NCBI RefSeq assembly: GCF_002584535.1
Contig: NZ_NUOT01000074.1
Coordinates: 39,890-103,889 of the forward strand
Direction: 5' to 3'
Length of the DNA: 64,000 nt
DNA from: Bacillus cereus
GTDB taxonomy: Bacteria; Bacillota; Bacilli; Bacillales; Bacillaceae_G
Below are positions 2,310 to 40,835 of the stretch, one piece after another (position 1 is the stretch's first letter; each line of letters opens with the position of its first letter). A program made the position numbers and the translations under genes. The notes under the pieces were generated by a model. The model was not told where the DNA came from and ran no database searches. It saw only the letters and a program-made list of their open reading frames with translations.

Positions 2310-2732
2310 ATGTACAAACTCAAAACAACAGAAACCAACAATAGTGTAATCGAGTTTATTGAAAATGTTGACAGCCTAAAAAAACGAGAAGACGCATATC
2401 AGTTATTAGATATATTTACTGAAACAACTGGTTATCCAGCAAAAATGTGGGGTCCAAGTATAATTGGATTTGGTACATATCATTATAAATATGCATCTGG
2501 TCATGAAGGGGATGCGCCATTAGTAGGCTTTTCACCCCGAAAAGCCAAGATTAGTTTATACTTCGCAACTGGTGATCCTGAGCGAGAAAACCTATTAAAG
2601 GACTTTGGAAAACATACATCTGGGAAATCGTGTGTATACATTAATAAAGTAGCAGACATTGATATTAATGTGCTAAAAGTGCTAATGAAACAATCTATAA
2701 ATTTTTTGAAAAAGACGTATCCGAATCATTAA
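2310..2732 (+). CDS. DUF1801 domain protein
   Basis: A 140-aa cytoplasmic protein. The pattern TGYPAKMWGPSIIGFGTYHYKYASG in two overlapping parts (residues about 41-65), followed by VGFSPRKAKISLYF and a C-terminal LGKH-like/INK segment, is the DUF1801 (YdhG/iron-chaperone-like fold) signature. No biochemical activity is established for this subgroup. The start follows AAAGGGGGGATTC and a strong terminator lies 18 nt after the stop, so it is a monocistronic unit. Confidence 0.85.
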   Translation: MYKLKTTETNNSVIEFIENVDSLKKREDAYQLLDIFTETTGYPAKMWGPSIIGFGTYHYKYASGHEGDAPLVGFSPRKAKISLYFATGDPERENLLKDFGKHTSGKSCVYINKVADIDINVLKVLMKQSINFLKKTYPNH

Positions 2733-2749
2733 TGTAATAATTAAGCATT

Positions 2750-2784
2750 AGGTATTTTGAACTCACATCAAAATACCTGTTTTT
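2750..2784 (+). terminator. Terminator after the DUF1801 gene
   Basis: AGGTATTTTG and CAAAATACCT form a perfect 10-bp stem with a 9-nt loop, followed by GTTTTT. Confidence 0.85.
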
Positions 2785-2836
2785 AGGTTAGTCCCTTATA
2801 AAATCTCATCAATAATAACAACTCAAAAAATACCAC

Positions 2837-3631
2837 TTAAATAGAAAGTGGTAAATTCAACTTTTTAGGAATATCAGCTTTAAGATGAGGCGTATATTGT
2901 ATAGAAAAAGAATATCCTTCTTGAACAAACGATATTTCATTATTATGAAAATGAAATGGTACATCGCTTCCTCTTAGATGTTTCTGGACCATTTGAATGA
3001 ACTCAAGACTCGGCGTCCCAAATGAAATATGCATTTTCGGCGGCAAAGCTTTCATTGCAATTGGAATCCAAGGTCTTCCTTTCCAGCTTGCAACAACATG
3101 AGCCGTACCACCAACTACAAAGTTAAATATTTCACCATCTTCAAATGTTTTCATAAATAAATTGGATTTTAGCCACTCTCTATATACTGGCACACTTTTT
3201 ACTGGGCATCCTACTTCTCTTAAGTACAAAATGTTCAAAGGTGTGTATGGAATTAAAACATCTTCTTCAATATATTTATGTGCAATAATTTCAAGAAGAT
3301 TTCCATCTCCATCACGAAAATATAAATTTAATCGACCATCCTCTTCGTCAATTTCATGACCGTCTTCCCACCTTACAATAAGCAAACCTGATTCTTGAAT
3401 CCACTTTACTGTTTCATAGAACTTTGAAAATGGTACTTGAAAAGCAAAATGAGCAGGAGAAAGTGGTTCATATGATTCTTCAAAAACTAATGAAACATAT
3501 GGAGTTAATTTAAAACTTATTTGTTTATTTGTTTTTGATAAAATTGGAATTCCAAGACATTTTGCATATACTTGTTCTACCCCCTGAATAGATACTGTCT
3601 GTAATTTCAACTCTGAAAAATGTGTAATCAT
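2837..3631 (-). CDS. VOC (glyoxalase/bleomycin-resistance fold) family protein, two-domain
   Basis: The product of about 264 aa shows two vicinal-oxygen-chelate repeats. The first (residues about 5-122) contains HFAFQVPFSKFYE and ends in FRDGDGNLLEIIAH, the usual terminal strand with a metal-binding Glu. The second half (about 130-255) is more divergent. Single-chain two-repeat forms occur among extradiol dioxygenase-like and CppA-type VOC proteins. Substrate unknown. Two in-frame ATGs occur; the second (3631) is better placed behind GGGGGAATGAGG than the first (3637). Monocistronic. Confidence 0.8.
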   Translation of the reverse strand: MITHFSELKLQTVSIQGVEQVYAKCLGIPILSKTNKQISFKLTPYVSLVFEESYEPLSPAHFAFQVPFSKFYETVKWIQESGLLIVRWEDGHEIDEEDGRLNLYFRDGDGNLLEIIAHKYIEEDVLIPYTPLNILYLREVGCPVKSVPVYREWLKSNLFMKTFEDGEIFNFVVGGTAHVVASWKGRPWIPIAMKALPPKMHISFGTPSLEFIQMVQKHLRGSDVPFHFHNNEISFVQEGYSFSIQYTPHLKADIPKKLNLPLSI

Positions 3632-3813
3632 CCTCATTCCCCCACCGTGTTTTCAATCAATACGATAAATTTAGCAAACTACTCATTCGTTTATATTATG
3701 AATCTGCAACCAGTTTTAATGGTATCGTTTTCATATTTACCTAAGAGCCAATGGACAATTGACCATTAACTCCTAAAAACTCATCTTAAGATTCGTAACA
3801 AAGCAAACGCTTA

Positions 3814-4350
3814 TCATTCCACCCCTAATTGCTTTTTCACTTCTTTATACACGCTCATATATGCTTTTAACTCTTTGAAAAGATCATGAATTAATGGTTT
3901 TGCGTCCTCACTGAGCTCACCATCTTGCACGTATAAACCGTCTAATACAACTTGCTTTGGAATTGCATTCGCATATACGCCTCGCGCGACAATACGCATA
4001 CTATTAAGTGCGTTTATACCGCCTTTTCCACCGCCTGCAACTGCCAATAGAGCAACTGGTTTATGGACAAATTCACTGCTGCTTAAGAAATCTAATGCGT
4101 TTTTTAGCGCACCGCTCATTGCATTATGATACTCAGGTGTGCAAAGGATTACACCATCAGCTTCTTTTACTAATTTTTTCAATTTCGTTACTGCTTCTAA
4201 TTCTCGTTGTGATTCTTCCCCATTATATAAAGGCAACTGTTCTGTTGCTAAATCATATAATTCCCCTGCAAATTGCTCTGCAATATATTTTGCAATGACA
4301 CGAGTTCTCCCAAACTTACGTGGTGTTCCGTTAATTACGACTAATTTCAT
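3814..4350 (-). CDS. azr: NADPH-dependent FMN reductase, azobenzene reductase-like (YhdA type)
   Basis: A 178-aa flavodoxin-fold enzyme that uses NAD(P)H and FMN to reduce azo dyes, quinones or chromate in the cytoplasm. The FMN-phosphate loop NGTPRKFGRTR (residues 7-17), the isoalloxazine-contact motif CTPEYHNAMSG (about 90-100) and the AGGGKGG segment match the YhdA/Azr family, and length is normal. The ATG at 4350 has GGAGAGAAAC upstream. It is not linked to the downstream two-component operon, which has its own terminator between them. Physiological substrate is inferred. Confidence 0.85.
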   Translation of the reverse strand: MKLVVINGTPRKFGRTRVIAKYIAEQFAGELYDLATEQLPLYNGEESQRELEAVTKLKKLVKEADGVILCTPEYHNAMSGALKNALDFLSSSEFVHKPVALLAVAGGGKGGINALNSMRIVARGVYANAIPKQVVLDGLYVQDGELSEDAKPLIHDLFKELKAYMSVYKEVKKQLGVE

Positions 4351-4455
4351 GTGTGTTTCTCTCCTTTGTTTTAAGTTCTACCTCTATAATATCAGAATAT
4401 TCTATGCGAAAATCAGCAAATAGAGGGAAAGGCTTTGAGAAAATAGTATGAAAAT

Positions 4456-4487
4456 TAAAAAACGAACTCATACTTTTGTATGAGTTC
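4456..4487 (-). terminator. Terminator of the yhcYZ-like operon
   Basis: A perfect 10-bp stem (GAACTCATAC / GTATGAGTTC, loop of four) is followed on the minus strand by GTTTTTTAA. Confidence 0.9.
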
Positions 4488-4499
4488 TTGATATATCAA

Positions 4500-4655
4500 T
4501 TAATCATTCTTTACAACAGCATGTCCGCCAAACTGATTTCGGAGTGCTGAAACAACTTTTCCGTGGAATGTATCATCTTTTTGAGAACGATAACGCATGA
4601 ACATTGACATTGCAATAACTGGAGAAGACGCTTGTAATATAACTTCTTCTCCCAT
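4500..4655 (-). CDS. Small 51-aa protein, third gene of the yhcYZ-like operon
   Basis: The frame MGEEVILQASSPVIAMSMFM continues for 51 codons to a stop just before the operon terminator. GGAAGGACC lies 6-7 nt before the ATG, and it begins only 12 nt after the response regulator's stop, so it should be co-transcribed. It contains no obvious membrane segment or metal motif; the C-terminal half (SALRNQFGGHAVVKND) is amphipathic. I do not recognise the family. Its position makes a link to the two-component system likely but unproven. Confidence 0.65.
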   Translation of the reverse strand: MGEEVILQASSPVIAMSMFMRYRSQKDDTFHGKVVSALRNQFGGHAVVKND

Positions 4656-4667
4656 AATAGGTCCTTC

Positions 4668-5303
4668 CTATACAACCCCATGCTTCACAGCATACAACGC
4701 AGCTTGCGTCCGATCATCTACCTGCAATTTCGCAAGTACATTTGAAACATGTGTTTTTACAGTCTGTTCTGTAATATAAAGCTCTGCTGCTATTTCTTTA
4801 TTACTTCTTCCTTTCGCAATCTCACAAAGTACTTCTCTTTCTCTTTTTGTCAGCATAAATAAACTATCCTGCTTTTCCTCTTTCACTACTGGTCTTCCTA
4901 ACAAAGCAGGAGTTACTTTCGGATGAAGATTCGCATTTCCTTGATATACAGCGATAATAGAAGCAACCAGTTGATCTGGCTGTACTTCTTTTAGTTGATA
5001 GCCATCCGCGCCCGCTTCTAGTGCCGGAAGAACATAATCTTGCTCTGAGAAGCTACTTAACATAAGTATTTTAATTGTGGCGTCATATTGTTTCAAACGT
5101 TTTGTCGCTTCAATCCCATCCATCTTTGGCATTGATAAATCCATTAATACTACATCTGGCCTTTCTTTTCGAATCAACTCTAACGCCTCTTCCCCATTCT
5201 CTGCTTCTCCTATTATTTCAAATTCCTCTTTCGTTTTTAAGAAGAATACAAGCCCTCTCCTAACGATATGATGATCCTCTACAAGTAATAGTTTAATTTT
5301 CAA
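4668..5303 (-). CDS. yhcZ: NarL/FixJ-family response regulator (YhcZ-like)
   Basis: Receiver domain (LLLVEDHHIVRRG at the start; phospho-acceptor Asp in VVLMDLSMPKMDG near residue 53; LSSFSEQD; switch Lys in YQLKEV), then a LuxR-type helix-turn-helix (LTKREREVLCEIAKGRSNKE to KTHVSNVLAKL). It is expected to bind DNA when phosphorylated by the upstream kinase. The best start is TTG at 5303, 6-7 nt behind GGGAG; a longer frame from 5321 overlaps the kinase stop but lacks a site. Gap to the kinase is 14 nt. Symbol by family resemblance to Bacillus subtilis YhcZ. Confidence 0.88.
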   Translation of the reverse strand: MKIKLLLVEDHHIVRRGLVFFLKTKEEFEIIGEAENGEEALELIRKERPDVVLMDLSMPKMDGIEATKRLKQYDATIKILMLSSFSEQDYVLPALEAGADGYQLKEVQPDQLVASIIAVYQGNANLHPKVTPALLGRPVVKEEKQDSLFMLTKREREVLCEIAKGRSNKEIAAELYITEQTVKTHVSNVLAKLQVDDRTQAALYAVKHGVV

Positions 5304-5317
5304 TGAACTTCTCCCTT

Positions 5318-6436
5318 TCAAACCGGTAATTGAATCTCAATCTTTGTTCCCTGTCCTAGCTTCGTTCTTATTCGAAATGTTCCTTTCAATAGTTCAATTC
5401 GTTCTTTCATACTTTTTAAACCAAGCGCTGAATCTCTAACTTTTTCTTTAACAAACCCAATGCCGTCATCTTCAATTTGAAAGTTCAACTTACTATTTTC
5501 TGTTTTTAAGTAAACTGATACTCTCTCACACGAAGCGTGTTTTTTACAATTATGCAATGCTTCCTGACTTATACGCCACAGCACTTCTTCTATTTCATCA
5601 CCAATTGAAATAACTCCATCAATTCGAATTGTTACTTGAATACCTAATAACTTTCCGTAATTCTGCACTGCTTCTGCCAGCCCTTTTTCTAATCCCTCTG
5701 GTCGTAATTGCCAAATTAATAACGTCATCTCTTCTAGCGCTTCTTGTGATAATTCCCCCATATAACTAAGCATACCTTGCAATTCTTTATCCTTTGTCAT
5801 ATCAAGAGTACCTCTAGCCGTTAACATTATGGAAAATAGCAATTGTTTCACCGAATCGTGTAAATCGCGTGCAAGTCGATTTCTCTCCGCTACAACTACA
5901 TATTTACGCTCTTTCTCGACTAACTTAATTCGTTGTATTGTTGTTCCGATTTGGAATGCAATCGCTTCTAATAAGGCTAGTTCTTCCTCTGAAAAATACG
6001 TTTTATGTGGGGAAGCAACATTAAGTAAACCGAACTTCTCGCTACCAGCACGAAGAGGAATCGTCGCATGATGTGTAATCTCTTCTGTCTCTCCCCAATT
6101 ATATTCAATGGCATCTTCAATTCGCTTACACTCAATGATATTTGTTGCCTTTTCTAAACGTCCATTTACGAATCGATTCACGCACCAACAATCCCCTTCA
6201 CACATCGGTTTTTTTTCATTCCATGTGAGTGCTGGAGGCAAATTCCTATCAACAAGCATACGGTGCGTTCCTTTTTCATCAATAAAAAATACCCAGCCTG
6301 TTTGTAGATTCATCACTTGTAATAATGTATGTAATACTTCCTCTAACATTTCCTGTAAATCAGTTGCCTCATTTAACAACTCCGCAATTTCTTTCAATGC
6401 TTCTAACCGCCGCATTTCCTTTTCATCATAATTCAT
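5318..6436 (-). CDS. yhcY: GAF-domain sensor histidine kinase (YhcY-like)
   Basis: A soluble sensor kinase without membrane segments. The N-terminal GAF domain (about residues 10-170) contains clustered cysteines (PMCEGDCWC and later IIECKRIE), suggesting a metal or redox ligand, as proposed for related sensors; this is inference. The HisKA_3 phospho-acceptor is the His in RLARDLHDSVKQ, followed by a HATPase_c domain (EALHNCKKHA N-box; DDGIGF G1 box; LGLKSMKER; LGQGTKIEI). Translation probably begins at ATG 6436, behind GGTGATG. The response regulator follows 14 nt downstream, making a classical NarL-type pair. Confidence 0.88.
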   Translation of the reverse strand: MNYDEKEMRRLEALKEIAELLNEATDLQEMLEEVLHTLLQVMNLQTGWVFFIDEKGTHRMLVDRNLPPALTWNEKKPMCEGDCWCVNRFVNGRLEKATNIIECKRIEDAIEYNWGETEEITHHATIPLRAGSEKFGLLNVASPHKTYFSEEELALLEAIAFQIGTTIQRIKLVEKERKYVVVAERNRLARDLHDSVKQLLFSIMLTARGTLDMTKDKELQGMLSYMGELSQEALEEMTLLIWQLRPEGLEKGLAEAVQNYGKLLGIQVTIRIDGVISIGDEIEEVLWRISQEALHNCKKHASCERVSVYLKTENSKLNFQIEDDGIGFVKEKVRDSALGLKSMKERIELLKGTFRIRTKLGQGTKIEIQLPV

Positions 6437-6487
6437 GTTCATCACCAATTATCATTATAACATTAAGAAATTTCTAAATACTACAAA

Positions 6488-7564: not shown

Positions 7565-7693
7565 TCACTCCACTGTAGCATGTAAACAAGACTTAAAGTG
7601 CCCAATTGCAAACTCATGTCCTTGCTCATTAAAAGAGGCCACTGCTTTTTCGTGTACAACGATATGAAACCCTTTATTATAGGCATCAGAACA
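7565..7693 (-). pseudogene. 3' fragment of a split nicotinamidase/isochorismatase-family gene
   Basis: On the minus strand the frame reads C-S-DAYNKGFHIVVHEKAVASF, then NEQGHEFAIGHFKSCLHATVE and stop at 7565. This is the C-terminal third of a cysteine hydrolase of the isochorismatase fold. The matching 5' part (16482-16895) ends exactly at the catalytic-Cys region VGVCTDIC, in the same orientation and order. About four codons (normally VLHTA-like) are lost at the joint. I infer one ancestral gene interrupted by the DNA between. No start codon or ribosome site belongs to this piece. Confidence 0.85.
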
Positions 7694-7807
7694 CAAATGT
7701 ATGAATACATGGTATATCTTAAAAACGCCTTCGAGCTTGTCGGAACAAGATTTTTCACAACTTATAATGCAAATTTATTTCAAAAGGACAAAATGGTATA
7801 TAAATTT
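7692..7807. repeat. Dispersed repeat, copy A (116 bp)
   Basis: Begins CACAAATGTATGAATACATG and ends AAATGGTATATAAATTT. It aligns along its whole length, at roughly 80-85% identity by eye, with 13854-13970. It lies exactly at the left edge of the insertion that splits the nicotinamidase gene. No coding function is apparent. Confidence 0.85.
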
Positions 7808-8163: not shown

Positions 8164-8593
8164 TACTAGCTTATGTGTAATGTAGATGGTCAGATGATAA
8201 ATAAGATGTTACTAAAAAAGGGATTAGCAAGGGTTGCTTATGTATATGCACCAAACACAACTCACATCGATGAGTTTTATGCAATTCAAAAAGAAGCACA
8301 GAAAAAAGGAATTGGGATATGGAGTATTGAAGACTATGCTGCTAATGATTTCAATACAAGTTCTTCAACAAACTCTAATCATCCTAAAACAAATTCTACC
8401 CCCCTCTCAAAACAATTCAAACGATAATAAAGAAAGCAATGTAGTTTGCAAGGGAAAAATCAAAGGCAATGCAAACAGCAAAATTTATCATGTTCCTGAC
8501 GGGGATTTTTATAATAAAACAACGAATAACATTGTCTGGTTTTGCACAGAAAAAGAAGCGCAAGAAAATGGATATGTAAAATCAAAACGTTAA
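8164..8593 (+). pseudogene. Truncated, frameshifted thermonuclease (SNase-like) gene
   Basis: The piece starts mid-domain at LLAYV; one extra A near 8178 (GTGTAATGTA for GTGTATGTA) breaks the frame. It continues DGQMINKMLLKKGLARVAYVY and KGIGIWSIEDYA, the C-terminal half of a staphylococcal-nuclease domain. A second frameshift near the C-run at 8400 leads into KIYHVPDGDFYNKTTNNIVWF, the small YHVPGG-type tail found on many secreted SNase proteins. Signal peptide and catalytic Arg/Asp residues are absent, so it is inactive. Confidence 0.8.
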
Positions 8594-8620
8594 AAAAGCA
8601 CTTAAAAAAGTGCTTTTTTT
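8592..8620 (+). terminator. Terminator between nuclease relic and defence operon
   Basis: AAGCACTT/AAGTGCTT stem with flanking A and T runs; can act in both directions and also closes the defence operon ending at 8647. Confidence 0.85.
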
Positions 8621-8646: not shown

Positions 8647-10473
8647 TTACACTCGTTGGTGAAACAGCTCATGATAAACATCTACTACTTTTTTGATTGC
8701 TTCTGCAATTCCAAGATGGAAACCATTCTTTTCTTCTAATGGTGTTAATTCCATTAAACGGACTTGATTACTTTCCATAGGGTCTTTAGGCTGTATATTA
8801 CCCTCATTCTTCGGATAAACTGCCCAAACTTCGTGCACCGTTCTAAATACACGCCAGTTACCTGGGGATTCATTTTTATATAAGAAAGGAGAATCCATAT
8901 TGTCACGATAAGAAATTAACTGACGCATAACATCATTCTTTTTTCTCTTTGCATTAGTCCATATGGCATGTACAGGTCTGTATTTAAAATCAACCATAAT
9001 TGTTCCAATATATTCATTATCTTCGTATATATCCATTCGAGCATCCGGTCGATTATGCGTTCCATTCGCATAAATCGGTTTATCCAGAACTGTTTTTTCC
9101 TTATCGAATGGTAATCTTTCATCATAAACCAAACGCAATCGAATATTCTCTTTCTTAAATTCAATTACTGTTCCTGGTTCTAAAAAAGGAACTGTAATTG
9201 TTTTTGAATTAGGATGGGTATCAAAAATCCAACCCTTTACCACTTCAAAGCCAACAGTTTCTTTTTGTAATCCGTCTATCAATTGTAAAAACCCCCAAAT
9301 TTCATACAATAAATCTGTTCGTTTCCAATAGTAGTCGTAATTGGTATCCAGTGTAATGGATAACTCTTCATTTTTTAACAAGCGATACAGTTGATATAAC
9401 TGTCTGTATCTTAAGTCCAAATGCAAGACATGAGGAATGCTCAACACTTGTGTCTCTTCTACTTCTTCTATCCAATCTTCTTTTAATACAAGCAAGCATT
9501 CACTTCTCACACGTCGAACAAATCGTTCATATTCTATCAATTCATCTAATACTTTAGAGTTCAATCGAACTTTAATGTGTTCATCGTGATGAAAACGTCG
9601 TTCATCTTTAATCTCTCGTTGTATTTTTTCTTTATGACTATGGAGATATTCCAATAATTCGTTCATTTCTCGCGAGATAAAACGCACGATATTTTTAATC
9701 CATTGATTCTCTAATAAGTTATGATTTCGAGTATGTTTAGGTGTGTAAACGTAATCTCTACTTTCTAGATGCCGAGAACGATAGCGGATACTAGTAGCAT
9801 CAACAATTCCAGCTTTTCCTTCTGGCACTAAATTATATTCCTTACGAATCCGCATACGAGGTTCGGTTTGAATCATTTTTAAAGAATTAATCCATTTCAA
9901 GTAATCTCTTTTAACGATATATAACTTTCGAAGAATATGAATGGGAATAGGAAGGGAGCTATTAATTCCAAGACTTGCATTTTTCCTTACCAAGTCTTGT
10001 GCTAGTCCATTCAACGTTTCTTCCACTTCATCACGCATTGAAACCCATTGTTCTTCTGTGATTTGTTTTGGTTGTACCTTGAGCCAAGAATAGTAAGATA
10101 CATTTTTTACAACTACTTTGATACGATAATGTCCAGGAATCAGTGGATAATATCCATCGCGATTGTCTGAATCCTTACCATTATTATATAGATATACAGG
10201 ACTTATTTCAGAAGATATATATGCAATATCATCTTCCCCAAATTCTAAATCCCGTTCTGGGAGGGTATCCAACCCATCCATATAAAGACGGGCTGTTTCA
10301 TCCTCACAAATAAATTCTAATAATAAATGTTTGTTTTCTACGACTTCGGGTACGTTTTCATCTTCCATTCGATACAAAAGCGTTTCATCTTGTACGAAGT
10401 TAGTAACAGGTATTTCTTTTTCGCTTGGGTGATTAGGATTTTGACGAAAAATAACTTTAAACGGTATGACCAT
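8647..10473 (-). CDS. McrC-like nuclease subunit (DUF2357 plus PD-(D/E)XK), third gene of defence operon
   Basis: The 608-aa product has a central DUF2357-type region (KHTRNHNLLENQWIKNIVRF and helical text, about residues 130-330). Its C-terminal PD-(D/E)XK nuclease core has Asp in RPDARMDIY (about 477/481), DFK (about 495-497) after a strand, and a following QLISYRD helix with Gln near 518. Known McrC-type proteins cut DNA or RNA when driven by their McrB partner; that role is inferred here. The ATG lies 17 nt inside the end of the upstream AAA gene, indicating translational coupling. The operon ends at the hairpin at 8592-8620. The target specificity cannot be read from this subunit. Confidence 0.85.
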   Translation of the reverse strand: MVIPFKVIFRQNPNHPSEKEIPVTNFVQDETLLYRMEDENVPEVVENKHLLLEFICEDETARLYMDGLDTLPERDLEFGEDDIAYISSEISPVYLYNNGKDSDNRDGYYPLIPGHYRIKVVVKNVSYYSWLKVQPKQITEEQWVSMRDEVEETLNGLAQDLVRKNASLGINSSLPIPIHILRKLYIVKRDYLKWINSLKMIQTEPRMRIRKEYNLVPEGKAGIVDATSIRYRSRHLESRDYVYTPKHTRNHNLLENQWIKNIVRFISREMNELLEYLHSHKEKIQREIKDERRFHHDEHIKVRLNSKVLDELIEYERFVRRVRSECLLVLKEDWIEEVEETQVLSIPHVLHLDLRYRQLYQLYRLLKNEELSITLDTNYDYYWKRTDLLYEIWGFLQLIDGLQKETVGFEVVKGWIFDTHPNSKTITVPFLEPGTVIEFKKENIRLRLVYDERLPFDKEKTVLDKPIYANGTHNRPDARMDIYEDNEYIGTIMVDFKYRPVHAIWTNAKRKKNDVMRQLISYRDNMDSPFLYKNESPGNWRVFRTVHEVWAVYPKNEGNIQPKDPMESNQVRLMELTPLEEKNGFHLGIAEAIKKVVDVYHELFHQRV

Positions 10474-12409
10474 ATAAACGTAACTCCTTCGCTTTTTCCG
10501 CTATCAATTTTCTTGTTTGTTTAAATTCATATGAATCTGGCATATTAGATAATAATTCTAATAGTTTACTATTTTCTACTTGCTTTGTATCAGGATTATA
10601 TTGACCAAGTAATTCAGTAAATTGTTCATCCGACCCGCGGACTTTTGTTAGAACACGTTGTACTAACTGAATATCAAAAGCTTCTTCTCTACTAAGAGGA
10701 GCGTTTAGCGGAATGTTATTTAGGAAATTGCTGATTTGACGAATAATACGCCATCCGATTCCCAAGTTTCGACTGCAATTTTGCAATTCAATGTGCAAAT
10801 CCCAGAGGAACTTAGATTCATTTTCATGTAATGAAATTTCACGTTCTTTTCTTTTGAATGTTTCGTATTCATCAAATGTAAATGGCTCTGACTTCGGTAT
10901 AATTGGTTCTTGTTTACGCTGTTCTTCCATTTGTAGCACATTGGAGTATGGCTGCATGTTTAAAGTAATTACATTTGCTCGGTCTAATACCTTATCAGAG
11001 AATTGGAATGTAGATTCATCAAGATTTACAGTTCCTACAAAAATCACGTTACTTCCTATACGTAAAGTAGGTGGAAATACATTTTGGTTGTAGATTCTTG
11101 CACTAAACTCTTCATTATACAAACGCAAGATTCGTTTATTTTCTTCCAACTCAAGTACCGATAAGAATTGTGAGAAATAATGTTCAACGCGTGCAAGATT
11201 CATTTCGTCAAAGCAAACGATATGCAAGTCTTCACCATATTCATTAGCACGAGCTAAGATATTCATCACGCCGGAATCTCCTGGGCGATATACGTTATGT
11301 AATGTATCTAAATACCCAATTACATCTGCATCATCTTGCCAAAACGGACGAACCGGTACAAATAGCATTTGGTCCTTGTTTAGTTTCACAGCATTTGCAT
11401 AACATTGGACAAGCTTTGATTTTCCAGTACCACTCATACCAGCTAAAATTACAAGACTTCCCGTTTTCATTGCAGTATGGAAATTATATAAATCTTTAGT
11501 GTCGTAATAGAGTCCTAAACGTTTGCATTCATTTTGAAATGCTTCCATAAACTCATGTTCTCTGTATCCAATAGAGTGTTCTTCTGGTGTAACAGTCTCT
11601 ACAGGTCCTTCATCTATTAATTGCTCTTTTGGAGCGTCTGGTGCTTCTAATCCACCAATAGGTTCTCCATGTTCTTCAAGCAAACCTTGCAATTCATCGT
11701 ATTGGTTTGATTCCATAAAAAGAACCTGTTCATGCACATAACTATTCATGACATATTCCGTTTGTAAATTGATGGAATTTACTTGATTTGATGATGTATA
11801 GAATCGAAAACCACCATGAGCGTAATCATGTTTTTCAAATGAACCGTATAGTGTATATTCTTGCTTGTCTGGTTGATGTTTCCATAAAATCATAGTTGGA
11901 GTATCGTCATCATCTTTAGGAATTTGTTTATTGTCTCCTATATATTTCTTACCCTGTAATTGTTGTTCAAATACCTCTTTTGTACGCTCAGTTGTTTCTT
12001 CTGAAAAAATTGGAATCGGGTCCAAAAATATACCAGGGGCAAAAGAATCAGACTTCTTAACAATACTTACATCCCTTGCAACATGATACTCCATTCCTCC
12101 ACTTGGTTTTTTTAAATCTACTTTAAAAAAGAGTATGTAGCGATTCAAAAAATCGCGAAGCGCTTGCTTTCTGTCGAAGTCGCTTTTAGTAATATCATCA
12201 TAAAAACCCCAATTATTTAACTCCTCCGCATAACAACATACATCTCTTATTTGTCGAGGGAAACTTTCAGGCGGCGTAGAAACGATTCGTATATAAAATT
12301 GTAAATTATCGTTTCGATTGATAATAACAGAACTTCTTCCTGTTGAAACCTCTCCGTCATTTGCTAAAATCCCTGCAATATCAAAATCCCATTTTTTTGC
12401 TCCGTACAT
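10457..12409 (-). CDS. McrB-like AAA+ NTPase subunit, second gene of defence operon
   Basis: A 650-aa motor protein. Residues about 1-280 form an unrecognised N-terminal region, presumably the specificity module. The AAA+ core follows: Walker A GMSGTGKS (324-331), a long insert, Walker B IVCFDEMN (397-404), and GTVNLDES (459-466) in the place where McrB has its MNTADR-type signature, then LDRA with the arginine finger candidate. Whether it uses GTP or ATP cannot be told. The ATG follows the first gene's stop by one base, with its ribosome site (GAGAGAGGG) inside that gene, and it overlaps the nuclease gene by 17 nt. The three proteins are expected to work as one complex. Confidence 0.88.
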   Translation of the reverse strand: MYGAKKWDFDIAGILANDGEVSTGRSSVIINRNDNLQFYIRIVSTPPESFPRQIRDVCCYAEELNNWGFYDDITKSDFDRKQALRDFLNRYILFFKVDLKKPSGGMEYHVARDVSIVKKSDSFAPGIFLDPIPIFSEETTERTKEVFEQQLQGKKYIGDNKQIPKDDDDTPTMILWKHQPDKQEYTLYGSFEKHDYAHGGFRFYTSSNQVNSINLQTEYVMNSYVHEQVLFMESNQYDELQGLLEEHGEPIGGLEAPDAPKEQLIDEGPVETVTPEEHSIGYREHEFMEAFQNECKRLGLYYDTKDLYNFHTAMKTGSLVILAGMSGTGKSKLVQCYANAVKLNKDQMLFVPVRPFWQDDADVIGYLDTLHNVYRPGDSGVMNILARANEYGEDLHIVCFDEMNLARVEHYFSQFLSVLELEENKRILRLYNEEFSARIYNQNVFPPTLRIGSNVIFVGTVNLDESTFQFSDKVLDRANVITLNMQPYSNVLQMEEQRKQEPIIPKSEPFTFDEYETFKRKEREISLHENESKFLWDLHIELQNCSRNLGIGWRIIRQISNFLNNIPLNAPLSREEAFDIQLVQRVLTKVRGSDEQFTELLGQYNPDTKQVENSKLLELLSNMPDSYEFKQTRKLIAEKAKELRLYGHTV

Positions 12410-12410
12410 G

Positions 12411-13616
12411 CTACAAAACCCTCTCTCTTATTCTGTTATTTTGGTTTAATAACTCTTTTACTTGATTGAAATTTTTACAAATGTTGATTTTAGTTTTGTC
12501 GATTTGTGAATACGAATCGTTTGCATTCAATAGAAATTGGTCTTTATTATCGAGTTCGTATGATAAAACCCAATAAGATTCACAGTCGAGTGGGAATTGA
12601 TAATCATGGACAGCACCTGCCTCTACAAATTTAAATTCGATTTTTTCATTATCAAATTGGTTTGTATATACGGGTTTTCCAATTACAAGAATTCGAGTTT
12701 TATTTGTTTGATTCAAAGTTGCTTTAATTTCAGTCGTTGTTTTGTTATCAGAACCTTCCTTTGTTAGTTCTTGCAATTGTTTCTCATGCAATTGTTTCTC
12801 GTTCATTTGTTTTGCATGTAAATGATTTAATTGACCTTGCAAATCTTTTATTGTTTCTTCGTACTCTGCTTTTTCTTTATTCCATTTTTCTTGTTTCCCC
12901 TTATACTCGTTAGTTATTGTTTCATTTTCTTTCGATAACTCGTTATACAATCGGTTTTTTTCATTTAGTTTTTCAGTGGTTTTCTTATTGCCTTCTTTTA
13001 TATCATCTATTTTTTTCTTATGATTTTCATCACGTTTTTCCAACTCCTTCGTCAGGTTTTCTACCTTTTGTTCGAGTTGTTGTATCTTCTTTTGGTCTTT
13101 TTTAGAGGTCGTCGTTACCTCTTTTGGTTTTTCGTTAGGAATTGGTTTTTGTTTTGTCATCGGTTTTTTATCGTTCGATTCAGTGTTTTCTGATTTAAGT
13201 GTAATGGATTCATTCGGAAGATTTAATAATTCGCTCTGTTCATCTTTTAAAAGTGCATACAATTGGACTGCCTTTTTTTCTTGGTCTTCAGAAAATAGTT
13301 TTGCAAATACCGTAGCAGCATTAATGTGCTCTGCAATATTTACTAGTTCGTTTACCTCTTTATCTACCAACGATAATCCATCTAGTAGGCTTGGCGCAAT
13401 TCCTTTGGACCAGGACATCAATTTTGGTAAATACTTTGTGTCAAGCAAGTTTGAAATAAGCATATTTCTATTTGTTTTATTAGCTTTATTAACGATAGAC
13501 TGAATTTTATTTTTTCGGACGCCATTAACTGGAATTTCTGTTTTTTCGTATATTTGAGCCAAAACTTCATTACTAAATCTAGGTAGCAACCATCGCCACA
13601 CATCTTTACTAGACAT
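12411..13616 (-). CDS. Coiled-coil protein, first gene of McrBC-like defence operon
   Basis: A 401-aa protein with three parts. Residues about 1-130 form a helical N-terminal domain; a Lys/Glu/Gln-rich linker and long coiled coil (about 160-300) follow, with heptad-like text such as KIQQLEQKVENLTKELEKR. The C-terminal domain (about 308-395) starts with the strand TRILVIGKP and resembles a divergent DUF2325-like Rossmann fold (inference). AGAAGGGA precedes ATG 13616. It lies immediately upstream of, and nearly fused to, the AAA gene. Coiled-coil partners are known in the CoCoNuT branch of type IV restriction systems; I cannot confirm that this protein belongs there. Confidence 0.8.
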   Translation of the reverse strand: MSSKDVWRWLLPRFSNEVLAQIYEKTEIPVNGVRKNKIQSIVNKANKTNRNMLISNLLDTKYLPKLMSWSKGIAPSLLDGLSLVDKEVNELVNIAEHINAATVFAKLFSEDQEKKAVQLYALLKDEQSELLNLPNESITLKSENTESNDKKPMTKQKPIPNEKPKEVTTTSKKDQKKIQQLEQKVENLTKELEKRDENHKKKIDDIKEGNKKTTEKLNEKNRLYNELSKENETITNEYKGKQEKWNKEKAEYEETIKDLQGQLNHLHAKQMNEKQLHEKQLQELTKEGSDNKTTTEIKATLNQTNKTRILVIGKPVYTNQFDNEKIEFKFVEAGAVHDYQFPLDCESYWVLSYELDNKDQFLLNANDSYSQIDKTKINICKNFNQVKELLNQNNRIRERVL

Positions 13617-14164
13617 ACAGTCCCTTCTTTCTAAAAGTGATATTGTTTTTTTGTGTGTCTGAATCCGTTTACATAATTATCACTCCCCTCACAATTGATA
13701 TTTCTAACCGTTTATTCCTATTATGTTAAGAGTCTATAAGAATATAAAGATAGAAAATATACATAACAAAATTTTTCTTGTTCAATGAGTAATATTCTCA
13801 TTCGTTATTTCCGATAAAGTCCTTAATAAAAGATAAGAAAATATTTCCTGAATCACAAATGTATGATTACATGATATATCTAAAAAAACACCTTCGAGCC
13901 TGTGTGAACAATTCTTTTTGCAACTTATAATACAAATTTATTCCAAAAGGACGAAATGGTATATAAATCTACCGCCTTTCAATACAATGCGACCATGAAT
14001 TAGTTTTACATTATCCCCCTCCTACGGCGTGCAGCTCTTTTTTAATCAACTAACGGTCTTTATTCAAATTGGCTCTGTTAAATTTTAATGTTGATAATTG
14101 AGTAAATTAGAGGGAAACCCTTATATTTGGATTTCCTGTTTTTATACTTTCGACTTTTTCGCTG
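13617..14164. other. Promoter region of the defence operon and non-coding DNA with repeat copy B
   Basis: No gene seen. The first 150 bases upstream of the coiled-coil gene are AT-rich and should hold its promoter, but I see no clear operator. Repeat copy B is at 13854-13970. A possible insertion-sequence terminus beginning GGCTCTGTTAAATTT lies at about 14072. Confidence 0.5.
13854..13970. repeat. Dispersed repeat, copy B (117 bp)
   Basis: Begins CACAAATGTATGATTACATG and ends GGTATATAAATCT, same orientation as copy A at 7692-7807. The mismatches are scattered, so the copies are not recent. Confidence 0.85.
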
Positions 14165-14591: not shown

Positions 14592-15140
14592 TTATATTAT
14601 GTTTAGTGCTTTCGTTACTGCAACTATCAACAAATAAAAACCAAGCAAGTTATCGAGATATTTTGTAGCCACGCCTTTAAATCGGTCTATTCATTGTTTC
14701 ATACGAGAATGGAGACCATTTACATTTTGAATGTGATACAAGCCTTTAATAACGTACTTACCATCATTTGACTTAATTCTGTAATGTTCATTCCCCTTTT
14801 CTTTAGCGTAGGTTTTGTACACTCTCCAAGTATCTGTAACAAGTACATTATTAGGGGTCAGTTTAGAGCCAATCATAGTATCCACCTTATTTTTGACAAC
14901 ACGCCCCAAACAAGCAACTTTTGAGACAGTTGCTTGTTTGGGGCTAATGCCTATATGTTTGAATTTTCCACCTCGCTTACGGAGTTTGCGTTCCGTAATG
15001 CCACGTTGCCCTTTTTGAGAGTATAGGAAATAAGTCTCATCAACTTCAACGATACCATCAAATTGCTCAAACTCCATTTGTTTTAATGCACTTAACAATT
15101 TGTGCCTCCAATATAAAAGTGTTTCACTTTATAAAACCGA
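14592..15140 (-). pseudogene. IS1595-family (ISXO2-like) transposase relic
   Basis: The text YWRHKLLSALKQMEFEQF, then GIVEVDETYFLYSQKGQRG, is diagnostic of IS1595 transposases and includes the first catalytic Asp. VTDTWRVYKTYAKEKG, NVNGLHSRMKQ and, beyond a TGA at 14691-14693, IDRFKGVATKYL follow. The TGA replaces the Trp that family members carry there. The zinc-ribbon N-terminus is gone (stop codon just upstream of YWRH). A perfect inverted repeat at 14903-14944 replaces normal coding text. The element is dead; clear terminal repeats were not identified. Confidence 0.85.
14903..14944. repeat. Perfect 17-bp inverted repeat with 8-nt loop inside the transposase relic
   Basis: GCCCCAAACAAGCAACT at 14903-14919 and its exact complement AGTTGCTTGTTTGGGGC at 14928-14944 flank TTTGAGAC. 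Both arms lie within the transposase frame. Confidence 0.95.
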
Positions 15141-15164: not shown

Positions 15165-16070
15165 TTAAAGCAGCAAATCCGTTGAGTTAACAATATGAAT
15201 TCCATATGTTAGTTTTAATTGCTCAAATGCTTTTTCCGTTTCCTCTTCATAACTAGGAATAGGACTCATACAATCATTTAATAGATAAATATTGGAGGTT
15301 ACAGAACGGTCATCTGTATAATGTTCAACAATTTGCTTTACTGATTCTAAGACACAGTGAGATTTGGCTTCTCCTGCAATAATGATTTTTTTGTAAGATT
15401 TTAATGAATTTAAAAATTCATAATTCCCTTCATCGCCCACTGCATATTCAGGCTTAATCATCCCATACATTTCACTTAATGGATTTTTTCCCTTTACGAT
15501 TTTTTCTATTTTGGTGTTTCGAGCAATAGAGTGGAAATGAATCATATTAGAAAATTGACCTTCTAATGCCGCCCCATTAGTTCCTTCAATGCAGTGATAT
15601 GTCCAAATACACAGTTGCTTCTTACCTATTTTTTCGAGATTACGCAGATAGTCTAAGCTTTCTTTTTGCTTTTCCACCGCTATCCAAATCCCCTCCTCTA
15701 CATCATCTAATTTAATAATAGTAAATGGGGCTGGGTGATTCCCTTCTCTATCCACCCACCAACAAGGGTGAAAAATTTGATGTAAGTCATGGGTATCTAA
15801 TGACACTGCGATAGTGGTAATTTTATTTAAGTTCTTATAGATAAAATTTGTGATATTTCGAATATCTCGATGAGAATTTGGAACCCCTAATTCTCCGTTC
15901 TCCATAAAATCATTTTGAAAGTCAATCCCAATAACCATTACTCGTTCCTTATCTTCGCTCGCAGGAACTAATTCCTCTGCCTTTGCCAAAACAAGTAAAT
16001 CATTTAGTTTCATTCTGTTTGTTCTACCAATTTCATCAATCCTAACAATGTCGTCAAATCTTGTCTTCAA
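15165..16070 (-). CDS. Cysteine hydrolase, nicotinamidase-like (isochorismatase superfamily)
   Basis: A 301-aa enzyme with the superfamily triad in place: Asp in VIGIDFQNDFM (near residue 51), a conserved stretch IWTYHCIEGTNG, and Cys in AGEAKSHCVLES (near 240). Nicotinamidases deamidate nicotinamide in NAD salvage; the size and extra segments suggest a divergent member whose substrate I cannot name. The stop at 15165 may be premature. One base out of frame, the sequence continues FAALKAMKESLELGFIK to a stop at 15124, which looks like an original C-terminus lost by a one-base change. It lies inside the insertion that splits another nicotinamidase-family gene. Confidence 0.8.
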   Translation of the reverse strand: MKTRFDDIVRIDEIGRTNRMKLNDLLVLAKAEELVPASEDKERVMVIGIDFQNDFMENGELGVPNSHRDIRNITNFIYKNLNKITTIAVSLDTHDLHQIFHPCWWVDREGNHPAPFTIIKLDDVEEGIWIAVEKQKESLDYLRNLEKIGKKQLCIWTYHCIEGTNGAALEGQFSNMIHFHSIARNTKIEKIVKGKNPLSEMYGMIKPEYAVGDEGNYEFLNSLKSYKKIIIAGEAKSHCVLESVKQIVEHYTDDRSVTSNIYLLNDCMSPIPSYEEETEKAFEQLKLTYGIHIVNSTDLLL

Positions 16071-16481: not shown

Positions 16482-16895
16482 TCATAAACAAATATCCGTA
16501 CATACGCCAACAAGGTGCACTTCCTGTATTCCTCTTTCCCTTAATTTCATTTCTAAGTCCGTTCCAACAAAAGCACTATAACGTGTTTTGTCCATATAGT
16601 ATACATTCTCATTATCTTGATATTTTTCATACAGATCTTGCAACTCTCCGTATAAATCTCTTCCTTTTGTACCCGCTATATTATGTGGTGGAAATAATTG
16701 TGTCTCTGGATGATAGGAATCATTCTTTTCATGTTTATCAATAGTAAACACAACATAATCTCCGTTTTCAATATACTCCTTCGTAATCGCTACAAGATGC
16801 TCTTCAATATCTTGCCCTGCCTTTCCACACGTTAAAGCACCATTTTCTGCTACAAAATCATATGTATAATCAATATTTATAAGCGCCCGCTTCAT
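16482..16895 (-). pseudogene. 5' fragment of the split nicotinamidase/isochorismatase-family gene
   Basis: ATG 16895 (behind GGAGGAGAAT) begins MKRALINIDYTYDFVAENG, with the catalytic Asp and GALTCGKAGQ. It continues to HEKNDSYHPETQLFPPHN (metal-binding His/Asp region) and REREGI-like text, and breaks at VGVCTDIC, directly after the catalytic Cys, followed by an accidental Leu and stop. The rest of the fold is at 7565-7693, 8.8 kb away in the same orientation. The truncated 137-residue product would lack the last strands and helices and is probably inactive. Confidence 0.85.
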
Positions 16896-17200
16896 CACTT
16901 ATTCTCCTCCCTACTTGTTTCACGCTAAACAATAGAAAACGAGTTTTAACGACTCAATATATTTTATTCGACATTTTCAAACAAATCCCTACGAAGCATT
17001 TATATATAAGATACAGGTATTTGTCATTTTTATTTGATTTGGATATATCGATTGGAATACGTCGGTAATATTGCACTTTTTATTATCATCCAGTAAGATC
17101 CTTTCGCTTGACAATCCCATTTTACGAAAAACAGATAAAACAAAAAGTACACTACTTTTTCAGTAGTGTACTTTTTATTATGCATAACATGTTAGCTATT
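16896..17200. other. Intergenic region, only a terminator seen
   Basis: AT-rich, without a supported reading frame; holds the lipoprotein gene's terminator at 17142-17176 and presumably the promoter of the split gene. Confidence 0.6.
17142..17176 (-). terminator. Terminator of the lipoprotein gene
   Basis: AAAAAGTACACTACT and AGTAGTGTACTTTTT form a long perfect stem with T-runs on either strand. Confidence 0.9.
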
Positions 17201-39638: not shown

Positions 39639-40835
39639 CTATGGCAAAAATACAATCCAGCCTATTACGATTAATAAGAAAATACCAATGATGATAGCTG
39701 GTAATAAATAAAACTGTGCGAGTATAACTGTTCCATAAATCAAAACAGCTGGAATAAACAAACACATCGTTGCCCTTCCTTTTAACCATAATAACTTCCC
39801 TTGCTCACAATACAATTGGAGAAACATTTTCTTTGCAAACTCATTCCATTGATCACCAGAATAACGTGCAATTGCAACACAGGAAAATACGATAATAATA
39901 AGCGCAATCCACCATGGTGTTACTTTTATAGATGTTGCACTCATCAAGATAATTTTAATATAAAAACTTAAAGAAGTACCTGATCGAAAATACTCCTTTA
40001 TAAATGATTCAATAATACGCGAATCCGATTTTTTTCCCAGTATATGCTTCGAGCGTGGAAACAACCATGGTCTTGAATTATTACTTGGCTTCGTAGTTTG
40101 ACCACTAAAGTGCATAATTTCCCTCGTCCAGCGCATACTCTCTTCCTTTTCTTTTTCAACTTCCTTAAAAAAGAAACGTTGATAGTTCATTTTTTGTTTT
40201 ATCAATATCAAACTAATTCCAATCAATGCAATGATAAATAACACTGCATATACTGGATGTTTAAAACCTAAAAACACACCACTTCCCAAGCAAATAAAAC
40301 TCATAAAAAATACGATAATCTTTACAATCCATGATACCCAGCGCTTTCCACCACGCACATCTATATATCTTACCAATAGTGATAACATGCACCGAAAAAC
40401 GGTAAAGGACAGCCAAAATAATACAACTTGTAAAAGAGAAGCCCCCATACTCTTAACCAATATAGGTAACATAATGAGCGTTACAATACTATTCATTATA
40501 CTTATTCGAATACATGTATATATCATTCCACACTTTATTAACTTTTGCATATGAACTGGATGTTGAATTAAAAACAGGCTATCTGCTTGTTCAAAAAACG
40601 AACGCATCCCTCTTGAATATGTAGCAAAGAAAAACACAAACAAACCTATTAAAAAATAAGCAGGTTCTTCAACTGTTAATTCTCGTGTCCATAATGAACG
40701 GTAATAGATTCCACTAAATATAACCGCTGGAATTATAATATATAGAGCTACCGTCCAATCCGTAACAGATCGAATCGATTTCCATTTCCTCTGCCATTCA
40801 TAACGTAACCTTTTATAAAATTGTTGTTTCATCAT
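39639..40835 (-). CDS. ABC transporter permease, EcsB/YthQ-like
   Basis: A 398-aa integral membrane protein with about eight hydrophobic segments in pairs (for example LIGLFVFFFATYSRG, IVKIIVFFMSFICLGSGVFL and, at the end, LPAIIIGIFLLIVIGWIVFLP). It partners the ATPase encoded immediately upstream, overlapping it by 23 nt. The pair resembles Bacillus subtilis YthP/YthQ, an EcsAB-type exporter. The substrate is not known. A cytoplasmic linker (about 215-270) is rich in Lys/Glu. Confidence 0.82.
   Translation of the reverse strand: MMKQQFYKRLRYEWQRKWKSIRSVTDWTVALYIIIPAVIFSGIYYRSLWTRELTVEEPAYFLIGLFVFFFATYSRGMRSFFEQADSLFLIQHPVHMQKLIKCGMIYTCIRISIMNSIVTLIMLPILVKSMGASLLQVVLFWLSFTVFRCMLSLLVRYIDVRGGKRWVSWIVKIIVFFMSFICLGSGVFLGFKHPVYAVLFIIALIGISLILIKQKMNYQRFFFKEVEKEKEESMRWTREIMHFSGQTTKPSNNSRPWLFPRSKHILGKKSDSRIIESFIKEYFRSGTSLSFYIKIILMSATSIKVTPWWIALIIIVFSCVAIARYSGDQWNEFAKKMFLQLYCEQGKLLWLKGRATMCLFIPAVLIYGTVILAQFYLLPAIIIGIFLLIVIGWIVFLP

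Follow-up and report, generated by a model that had tools for sequence, protein, structure and literature searches.

What kind of system is encoded by three tightly packed genes, for a coiled-coil protein, an AAA+ motor and a nuclease, on the minus strand of a Bacillus cereus contig? The genes lie in a 64,000-nucleotide stretch, the whole of which is here called the window (positions 39,890 to 103,889 of contig NZ_NUOT01000074.1, RefSeq assembly GCF_002584535.1). A reading made from the sequence alone had proposed an McrBC-like complex of three genes, related to the CoCoNuTs and equipped with a coiled-coil subunit of its own, and had considered it a variant not fully described. Gene order, motifs and domains bear out the former proposal; the latter falls, given that this layout is already described as Type I-B in the parts of Bell et al. 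2024 (PMC11090510) that deal with this branch. On the basis of its motifs, gene order, nuclease residues and the structural model of its coiled-coil protein, we assign the locus with good confidence to the Type I-B CoCoNuTs, as a GTP-driven, McrBC-like complex that most likely serves in defense.

Layout of the locus and comparison with known systems

The core features of the locus are the following (window coordinates):

12411..13616, minus strand: CnuA-like protein, 401 amino acids (open reading frame, model, coiled-coil proxy, conservation)
10457..12409, minus strand: CnuB-like AAA+ GTPase of the McrB family, 650 amino acids (Pfam AAA_5, PADLOC, model, Foldseek, motifs)
8647..10473, minus strand: CnuC-like McrC homolog, 608 amino acids (Pfam DUF2357 and PDDEXK_7, conserved nuclease residues)
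10457..10473, minus strand: CnuB/CnuC overlap, with the CnuC start codon within the conserved C-terminal peptide of CnuB
10484..10489, minus strand: AAGGAG, resembling a ribosome-binding site, identical with K-E codons of CnuB and located 10 nucleotides before the CnuC start

A check of the open reading frames (ORFs) reproduced the coordinates and sizes proposed earlier, along with the single-nucleotide gap between the CnuA and CnuB genes (12410) and the 17-nucleotide overlap between the CnuB and CnuC genes (10457-10473).

As characterized in the pertinent parts of PMC11090510, the CnuA of Type I-B CoCoNuTs is a separate protein in which the coiled coil follows a PYD/CARD-like helical domain at the N-terminus and precedes a REC domain at the C-terminus; their CnuB, devoid of a coiled coil, has an OB fold of the CSD type at its N-terminus, often along with a YTH-like domain; and their CnuC combines an N-terminal IG-like beta-sandwich with DUF2357 and a nuclease. 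These systems are found mainly in Bacillota, and the Type I branch is marked by an NxD motif, usually followed by E or D, that replaces NxxD. The window locus shares with them a CnuA encoded on its own, with a coiled coil between a helical N-terminal and an alpha/beta C-terminal domain, a CnuB with NxD(E) and no coiled coil, a CnuC with DUF2357 and a PD-(D/E)xK domain, and relatives mainly in Bacillota; no difference was found in the testable features, the receiver-like C-terminal domain being one without a conserved acceptor Asp. Escherichia coli McrBC has the AAA+ fold of McrB and a DUF2357 plus PD-(D/E)xK partner in common with the locus, which differs from it in the NxD rather than NxxD motif, the additional coiled-coil gene and other N-terminal domains; a third gene joins the canonical two-gene mcrB-mcrC operon. 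In Type II and Type III CoCoNuTs, by the account in the same parts of PMC11090510, a UPF1-like superfamily 1 helicase, CnuH, is encoded nearby and the McrC nuclease is often inactive or absent. Here, in contrast, no CnuH-like helicase was detected in the scanned genes (at E ≤ 0.001, the 10 flanking window ORFs match no helicase family, and the three genes match none above the cut-off), and the nuclease residues are intact.

The GTPase

Pfam recognizes AAA_5 above the cut-off in the 650-amino-acid protein. The PADLOC model PDC-M26A (we take PDC to stand for phage-defense candidate) matches it at E = 3.3e-44 and matches 60 of the 60 aligned CnuB proteins at E ≤ 0.01. The catalytic motifs are invariant in these 60 sequences, the window included: Walker A (G-x-S-G-x-G-K), Walker B (D/E-E) and N462-x-D464 are each present in 60/60, the last being followed by E in 59 and by D in one. 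In the window protein, the NxD motif (residues 462-465) lies within GTVNLDES, a text previously taken for the mark of an undescribed variant; we reject that interpretation, as the text matches the NxD-then-E signature of the Type I-B branch in the relevant part of PMC11090510.

The structural model of CnuB, built from 58 sequences (mean predicted local distance difference test score, pLDDT, 88.2; predicted template modeling score, pTM, 0.59), comprises a beta-rich domain (residues 6-118), an alpha/beta domain (approximately 129-250) and the AAA+ motor (275-650), with no coiled coil. When this model was compared with solved structures using Foldseek, 6hz4, which we take to be E. coli McrB, appeared at ranks 12 and 14, with template modeling scores of 0.53-0.54 by target length. 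The 280-residue N-terminal region singled out in the sequence-only reading is accordingly folded into two domains in the model, whereas its use as a sign of an undescribed variant is not supported, PMC11090510 placing CSD and YTH-like domains in this region. Profile searches of solved structures gave no usable match for either N-terminal domain, the best for the first being the sensor protein 3lic (E = 0.005); the second, compared with an EVE-domain protein (L096, residues 1-362), yielded a probability of 1.1%. A search of the PDB with single proteins retrieved nothing at E ≤ 0.1 for CnuB or CnuC; the profile search yielded one excinuclease P-loop stretch at E ≤ 0.01 for CnuB and four weak matches for CnuC, the best one being occludin (E = 0.006).

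These N-terminal domains are where an RNA-directed function would reside. CoCoNuTs as a whole are predicted to target RNA, on the strength of their CSD, YTH-like and death-like domains (PMC11090510, in the parts on domain content), and RNA binding or targeting is possible for the window locus as well. Extended to RNA-directed abortive infection, with binding of RNA or the ribosome by the CnuB N-terminal domains, cell arrest triggered by CnuA and a secondary role for DNA cutting, the same family-wide prediction meets a kept McrC nuclease motif and a scan of the three genes and 10 flanking ORFs that detected no RNase family, HEPN included; we regard this scenario as rather unlikely.

The nuclease

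In the 608-amino-acid protein, Pfam identifies DUF2357 (116-287) and PDDEXK_7 above the cut-off; about 115 residues precede DUF2357, and the PD-(D/E)xK nuclease domain spans residues 389-556, with the catalytic residues PD at 476-477 and DxK at 495-497. Among 50 CnuC proteins, PD and K are present in all 50, the acidic position of D/E-x-K being D in 44 and E in 6; DUF2357 is detected in 49 and PDDEXK_7 in 48 at E ≤ 0.1. At the same threshold, the Pfam McrBC family PF10117 is found in three of the 50, and three PDC-M26B models of PADLOC match 13, 10 and 3 of them, respectively. Because the 50 CnuC proteins checked retain the nuclease residues, we think that the output consists at least partly of DNA cutting.

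The intact PD and K, the near-universal DUF2357 and the Foldseek match to McrB, along with the lack of a methyltransferase among the 10 flanking window ORFs scanned (two of the ten without any match), would also be compatible with restriction of the classical Type IV kind, in which modified phage DNA is cut as by McrBC and CnuA is only a specificity or assembly factor. This explanation has to accommodate an NxD motif in place of NxxD, and N-terminal domains of CnuB for which no sequence match among solved structures marks a modified-base reader; we consider it possible, if on balance doubtful. The alternatives weighed here are not all exclusive with the assignment to Type I-B CoCoNuTs, which concerns identity.

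Recurrence of the gene order among relatives

Is the association of the coiled-coil gene with the other two accidental? With a CnuB alignment, 215 places were confirmed in genome contigs; the 79 loci obtained from the best 80 of these form, together with five plasmid loci (L002-L006), a set of 84 operons besides the window. This set consists of close relatives only and includes several near-duplicates. A further plasmid locus, from Enterococcus faecium (L001), was excluded, its AAA gene (CnuB, 2629-5858) being split by insertion sequences. By record names, 78 of the 79 contig loci come from what we take to be Bacillota and one from a metagenome-assembled genome of Methanobrevibacter (L054); drawn from the best 80 of 215 places, they are close relatives of a Bacillota query. 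Among the same best 80 places, the nearest to the window CnuB are those of Rossellomorea vietnamensis (70%) and Oceanobacillus profundus (69%). In DNA comparisons, a 1.9-kilobase gene of the window has matches in 59 of 61 genomes of one genus, with an identity of at most 71% among the high-scoring ones, and a 2.2-kilobase flank has matches in 144 of 193 genomes of one family, the best being 73% over about 450 bases.

An upstream ORF of at least 250 amino acids is present in 76 of the 84 other operons, and 75 of the 76 abut the CnuB gene (-83 to +25 nucleotides). A coiled-coil-like run, measured in residues by a simple rule of our own rather than a published predictor, reaches at least 42 in 74 of the 76 upstream ORFs and at least 56 in 66, so that a separate coiled-coil gene forms an ORF of its own in the window and in 74 of the 84 other operons. 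In a control set from the same loci, which comprises 348 other, non-overlapping ORFs with 250 or more amino acids, 22 reach a run of 42 and six reach 56; when all mechanical ORFs are considered, 6 of 400 reach 56. The partner proteins rarely attain such runs: at least 56 residues are found in 2 of 84 CnuB (L062, a fusion, with 124, and L048 with 57) and in 3 of 84 CnuC (L008, L080, L084). Thus, the three-gene order recurs across relatives and is not a matter of chance, and the conserved co-occurrence on which the sequence-only reading depended does hold.

The exceptions are few. The two upstream ORFs below 42 belong to L062, where it is another gene 293 nucleotides away, and to L066 (run of 37). 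Six of the eight loci without an upstream ORF have just 17-359 nucleotides of sequence before CnuB (L026, L051, L059, L063, L070, L075); of the remaining two, L069 is a probable fusion and L084 shows none. With profiles of the CnuA N-terminal and C-terminal domains, 64 of 79 upstream ORFs are recovered in each case at E < 1e-3, a partly circular result given that the profiles were built from 58 of the same proteins; lactobacilli, plasmid copies, Kurthia and short ORFs make up most of the rest.

In plasmid sequences, CnuC matches 7 records and CnuB 266, mostly distant ones, whereas a tblastn search with CnuA against plasmids gave no match; phage records match CnuB twice, each time in its AAA part. 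Three loci of the set have peculiarities of their own. The Clostridium CnuB of L048 carries its 57-residue run even though a separate CnuA-like gene is present. In Neobacillus rhizophilus (L018; 198-1832 and 9024 onwards), a second CnuC-like gene lies upstream, possibly indicating a tandem of two such systems. The CnuB-CnuC junction of the Methanobrevibacter locus is identical in DNA to that of a Lactococcus plasmid locus (L003), which would reflect contamination or recent transfer.

Joint inheritance, divergence and gene fusions

Over 46 dereplicated operons, the mean pairwise identity is 20% for CnuA, 45% for CnuB and 31% for CnuC. The identity matrices of the three proteins are strongly correlated (r = 0.85, 0.85 and 0.82; none of 1000 permutations reaches these values), which, at the level of sequence, shows joint inheritance. 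CnuA diverges fastest of the three, a pattern that fits diversifying pressure; fast change is also usual for coiled coils.

In Neobacillus drentensis (L062), the GTPase is part of one protein with the CnuA N-terminal domain (E = 3.5e-38) and a 124-residue coiled-coil run, the usual CnuB N-terminal domains not being found; this is a clear fusion. In Metalysinibacillus jejuensis (L069), an 870-amino-acid protein contains the CnuB N-terminal domains and the GTPase behind a long extension that appears helical and coiled by eye; the extension does not reach E < 1e-3 with the CnuA N-terminal domain profile and lacks a coiled-coil run of 56, and we consider this protein a probable CnuA-CnuB fusion. 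The L062 fusion and, less surely, that in L069 suggest that CnuA and CnuB form a complex.

A constant overlap between CnuB and CnuC

In all 85 operons, the window included, a start codon lies exactly 17 nucleotides before the last base of the CnuB stop codon; the CnuC start at this position is ATG in 82, TTG in two and GTG in one. The longest mechanical CnuC ORF begins further upstream in L002, L006, L026, L056 and L080, and the same internal start is present in these loci. In 82 operons, the AT of ATG comes from a CnuB codon for N, Y or H, which is always xAT, never xAC, compared with a background of 71% xAT for Y, N, H and D in CnuB genes (P = 9e-13). Four residues earlier, the Glu codon is GAG in 81, GAA in three and GGG in one of the 85, compared with a CnuB background of 35% GAG (P = 2e-33); the operons being related, both P-values overstate independence. 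After dereplication to 75 operons, the ratios are 73 to 0 for xAT versus xAC and 72 to 2 for GAG versus GAA.

The simplest reading of this codon bias would be selection on the CnuC start and its putative ribosome-binding site, favored because the N, Y and H codons have only the start-codon letters in common. The dual-coded junction couples CnuB and CnuC on the DNA. In the main text of PMC11090510, the phrase 'overlapping reading frames' occurs once, in reference to systems with a missing or inactive McrC nuclease. Being constant, the 17-nucleotide overlap can serve as a simple marker in searches for such operons.

The coiled-coil protein

The CnuA model, built from 58 sequences (mean pLDDT 85.6, pTM 0.39), consists of a helical domain (residues 1-131), a disordered linker (130-166), a single long helix (169-288) and an alpha/beta domain (307-400); the continuous helix predicted at 169-288 goes with a coiled-coil-like run of 120 residues by our simple rule. 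Pfam yields two weak matches only, both to coiled-coil families, and no PADLOC model matches the protein below E = 0.01. The sequence-only reading had allowed for a DUF2325-like C-terminus; this assignment was rejected, with no Pfam match to DUF2325 at E ≤ 1 and none among the first 25 of 110 families retrieved for 58 CnuA proteins.

The alpha/beta C-terminal domain may have a receiver-like fold. In the Foldseek search with the CnuA model, ranks 14, 30 and 41 are taken by chains of receiver domains and ranks 19 and 27 by the FleQ domain of FlrA, all at E-values of 1.0-1.8 and amid unrelated proteins. The domain keeps IG-x-P and DEIW-x-L-x-Y signatures, and W349 in its strand 3 is conserved in 47 of 58 sequences. 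In receiver domains, the phospho-acceptor is located at the end of strand 3; behind this strand in CnuA (352-357), Asp occurs in at most 7 of the 58 sequences in any column. Phosphorylation as the CnuA trigger is therefore unlikely, across the 58 aligned relatives and not only at this locus, because the receiver-like domain has no conserved acceptor Asp. This weakens the phosphorylation idea put forward in PMC11090510 and steers the search for what triggers CnuA away from histidine kinases. As in the sequence-only reading, we infer that CnuA, the first protein of the operon, would sense the target.

Weighing the assignment

Several results weigh against the assignment to Type I-B CoCoNuTs. The domain identities expected for this type do not emerge from sequence comparison: there is no supporting match for CSD or YTH in the CnuB N-terminal domains (among the first 25 of 49 Pfam families and in solved-structure profiles), and the profile of the CnuA N-terminal domain retrieves only weak or designed-protein matches among solved structures, with no death-fold match, so that its PYD/CARD-like nature is not confirmed. 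The profile of the CnuA C-terminal domain has no sequence match among solved structures, and Foldseek finds nothing at E ≤ 0.001 for CnuA. For the CnuB model, MCM helicases and one dynein precede McrB by E-value. PADLOC gives no match at E ≤ 1 for the window CnuC; thus, the locus resembles the PDC-M26 system of that database in the PDC-M26A match of its AAA protein and differs from it in the lack of a PDC-M26B match. The genes that flank the relatives do not indicate defense: in 129 flanking proteins, 88 PADLOC families are matched at E ≤ 1e-10, every one of them a single time and PDC-M26A among them, a count that comes with no control set and is not used as support for defense. Finally, no experimental test of a Type I-B CoCoNuT, phage challenge included, was found among the open-licence PubMed Central papers listed, and such work may exist elsewhere.

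Genomic setting

The operon is bracketed by direct repeats and accompanied by a candidate terminator:

8592..8619, no strand assigned: A/T-flanked hairpin directly behind CnuC, possible bidirectional terminator, found by eye and without a report from the hairpin scanner
7692..7805, plus strand: 115-base-pair imperfect direct repeat, left copy, 86% identical to the right copy
13854..13968, plus strand: 115-base-pair imperfect direct repeat, right copy, 86% identical to the left copy

The spacing of the repeats is 6.16 kilobases, and no further long copy was found in the window or in the relative loci compared. An N-terminally truncated staphylococcal-nuclease-like gene (SNase, 8173-8427) lies inside the repeats, and a partial IS1595/ISXO2-like transposase remnant (14691-15098) lies just outside. 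Mobile defense genes are often bracketed by repeats and located near transposase remnants. The presence of relatives on plasmids of several genera agrees with mobility.

This setting bears on whether the locus could be a housekeeping or stress module derived from McrBC rather than a defense system. The genes flanking the relatives are mixed, mostly from ordinary families, and such a role is proposed in the Pseudo-Type I-B hypothesis, as stated in part of PMC11090510, and has a precedent in PcdA, a Staphylococcus division protein that, like CnuB, is an McrB-family AAA+ protein. According to the passages of PMC10602043 that describe it, PcdA carries two EVE domains, its Walker motifs are degraded and it lacks an McrC partner, unlike the proteins encoded here; considering also the plasmid-borne relatives and the position of the window copy between repeats and near a transposase remnant, we find a non-defense function very unlikely.

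Farther along the window, two neighboring isochorismatase-like ORFs are located at 15165-16070 and 16482-16898, the first of which matches Pfam weakly. A pair consisting of a GAF-domain histidine kinase and a LuxR-type response regulator is encoded near the operon, at 4668-6448.

Proposed mechanism and implications

Taken as a Type I-B CoCoNuT, the locus would encode a GTP-gated nuclease in which CnuA acts as the sensor or scaffold, CnuB as the motor and reader, and CnuC as the activator and cutter. CnuB would form a ring, McrB hexamers being stated in PMC11090510 (in part of its text), with the N-terminal domains touching the target nucleic acid. CnuA, a fast-evolving sensor or scaffold, would be held to CnuB and would report infection via its helical N-terminal and alpha/beta C-terminal domains, probably not via phosphorylation. 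The DUF2357 stalk of CnuC would insert into the ring and stimulate GTP hydrolysis, whereupon the PD-(D/E)xK domain would cut the nucleic acid. The gene order, the motifs and the coding junction are directly observed; the complex, its trigger and its substrate are predictions of this scheme. A more specific version is speculative, and we hold it to be unlikely as a whole: CnuA would be a ligand-sensing switch, not a phosphorylated regulator, that binds a phage-derived or signal molecule and frees the CnuB-CnuC motor, while the constant dual-coded overlap keeps CnuB and CnuC in step, so that the nuclease never accumulates without its GTPase gate.

The locus is an intact, well-formed member of a described and, apparently, experimentally unprobed family of predicted defense systems. 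What the locus and its relatives add to the knowledge of this family is useful but modest: a strict overlap, a receiver-like domain that lacks the acceptor Asp, and a CnuA-CnuB fusion. Because its catalytic motifs are intact and its host is Bacillus-like, the locus is usable as a test case for Type I-B CoCoNuTs.

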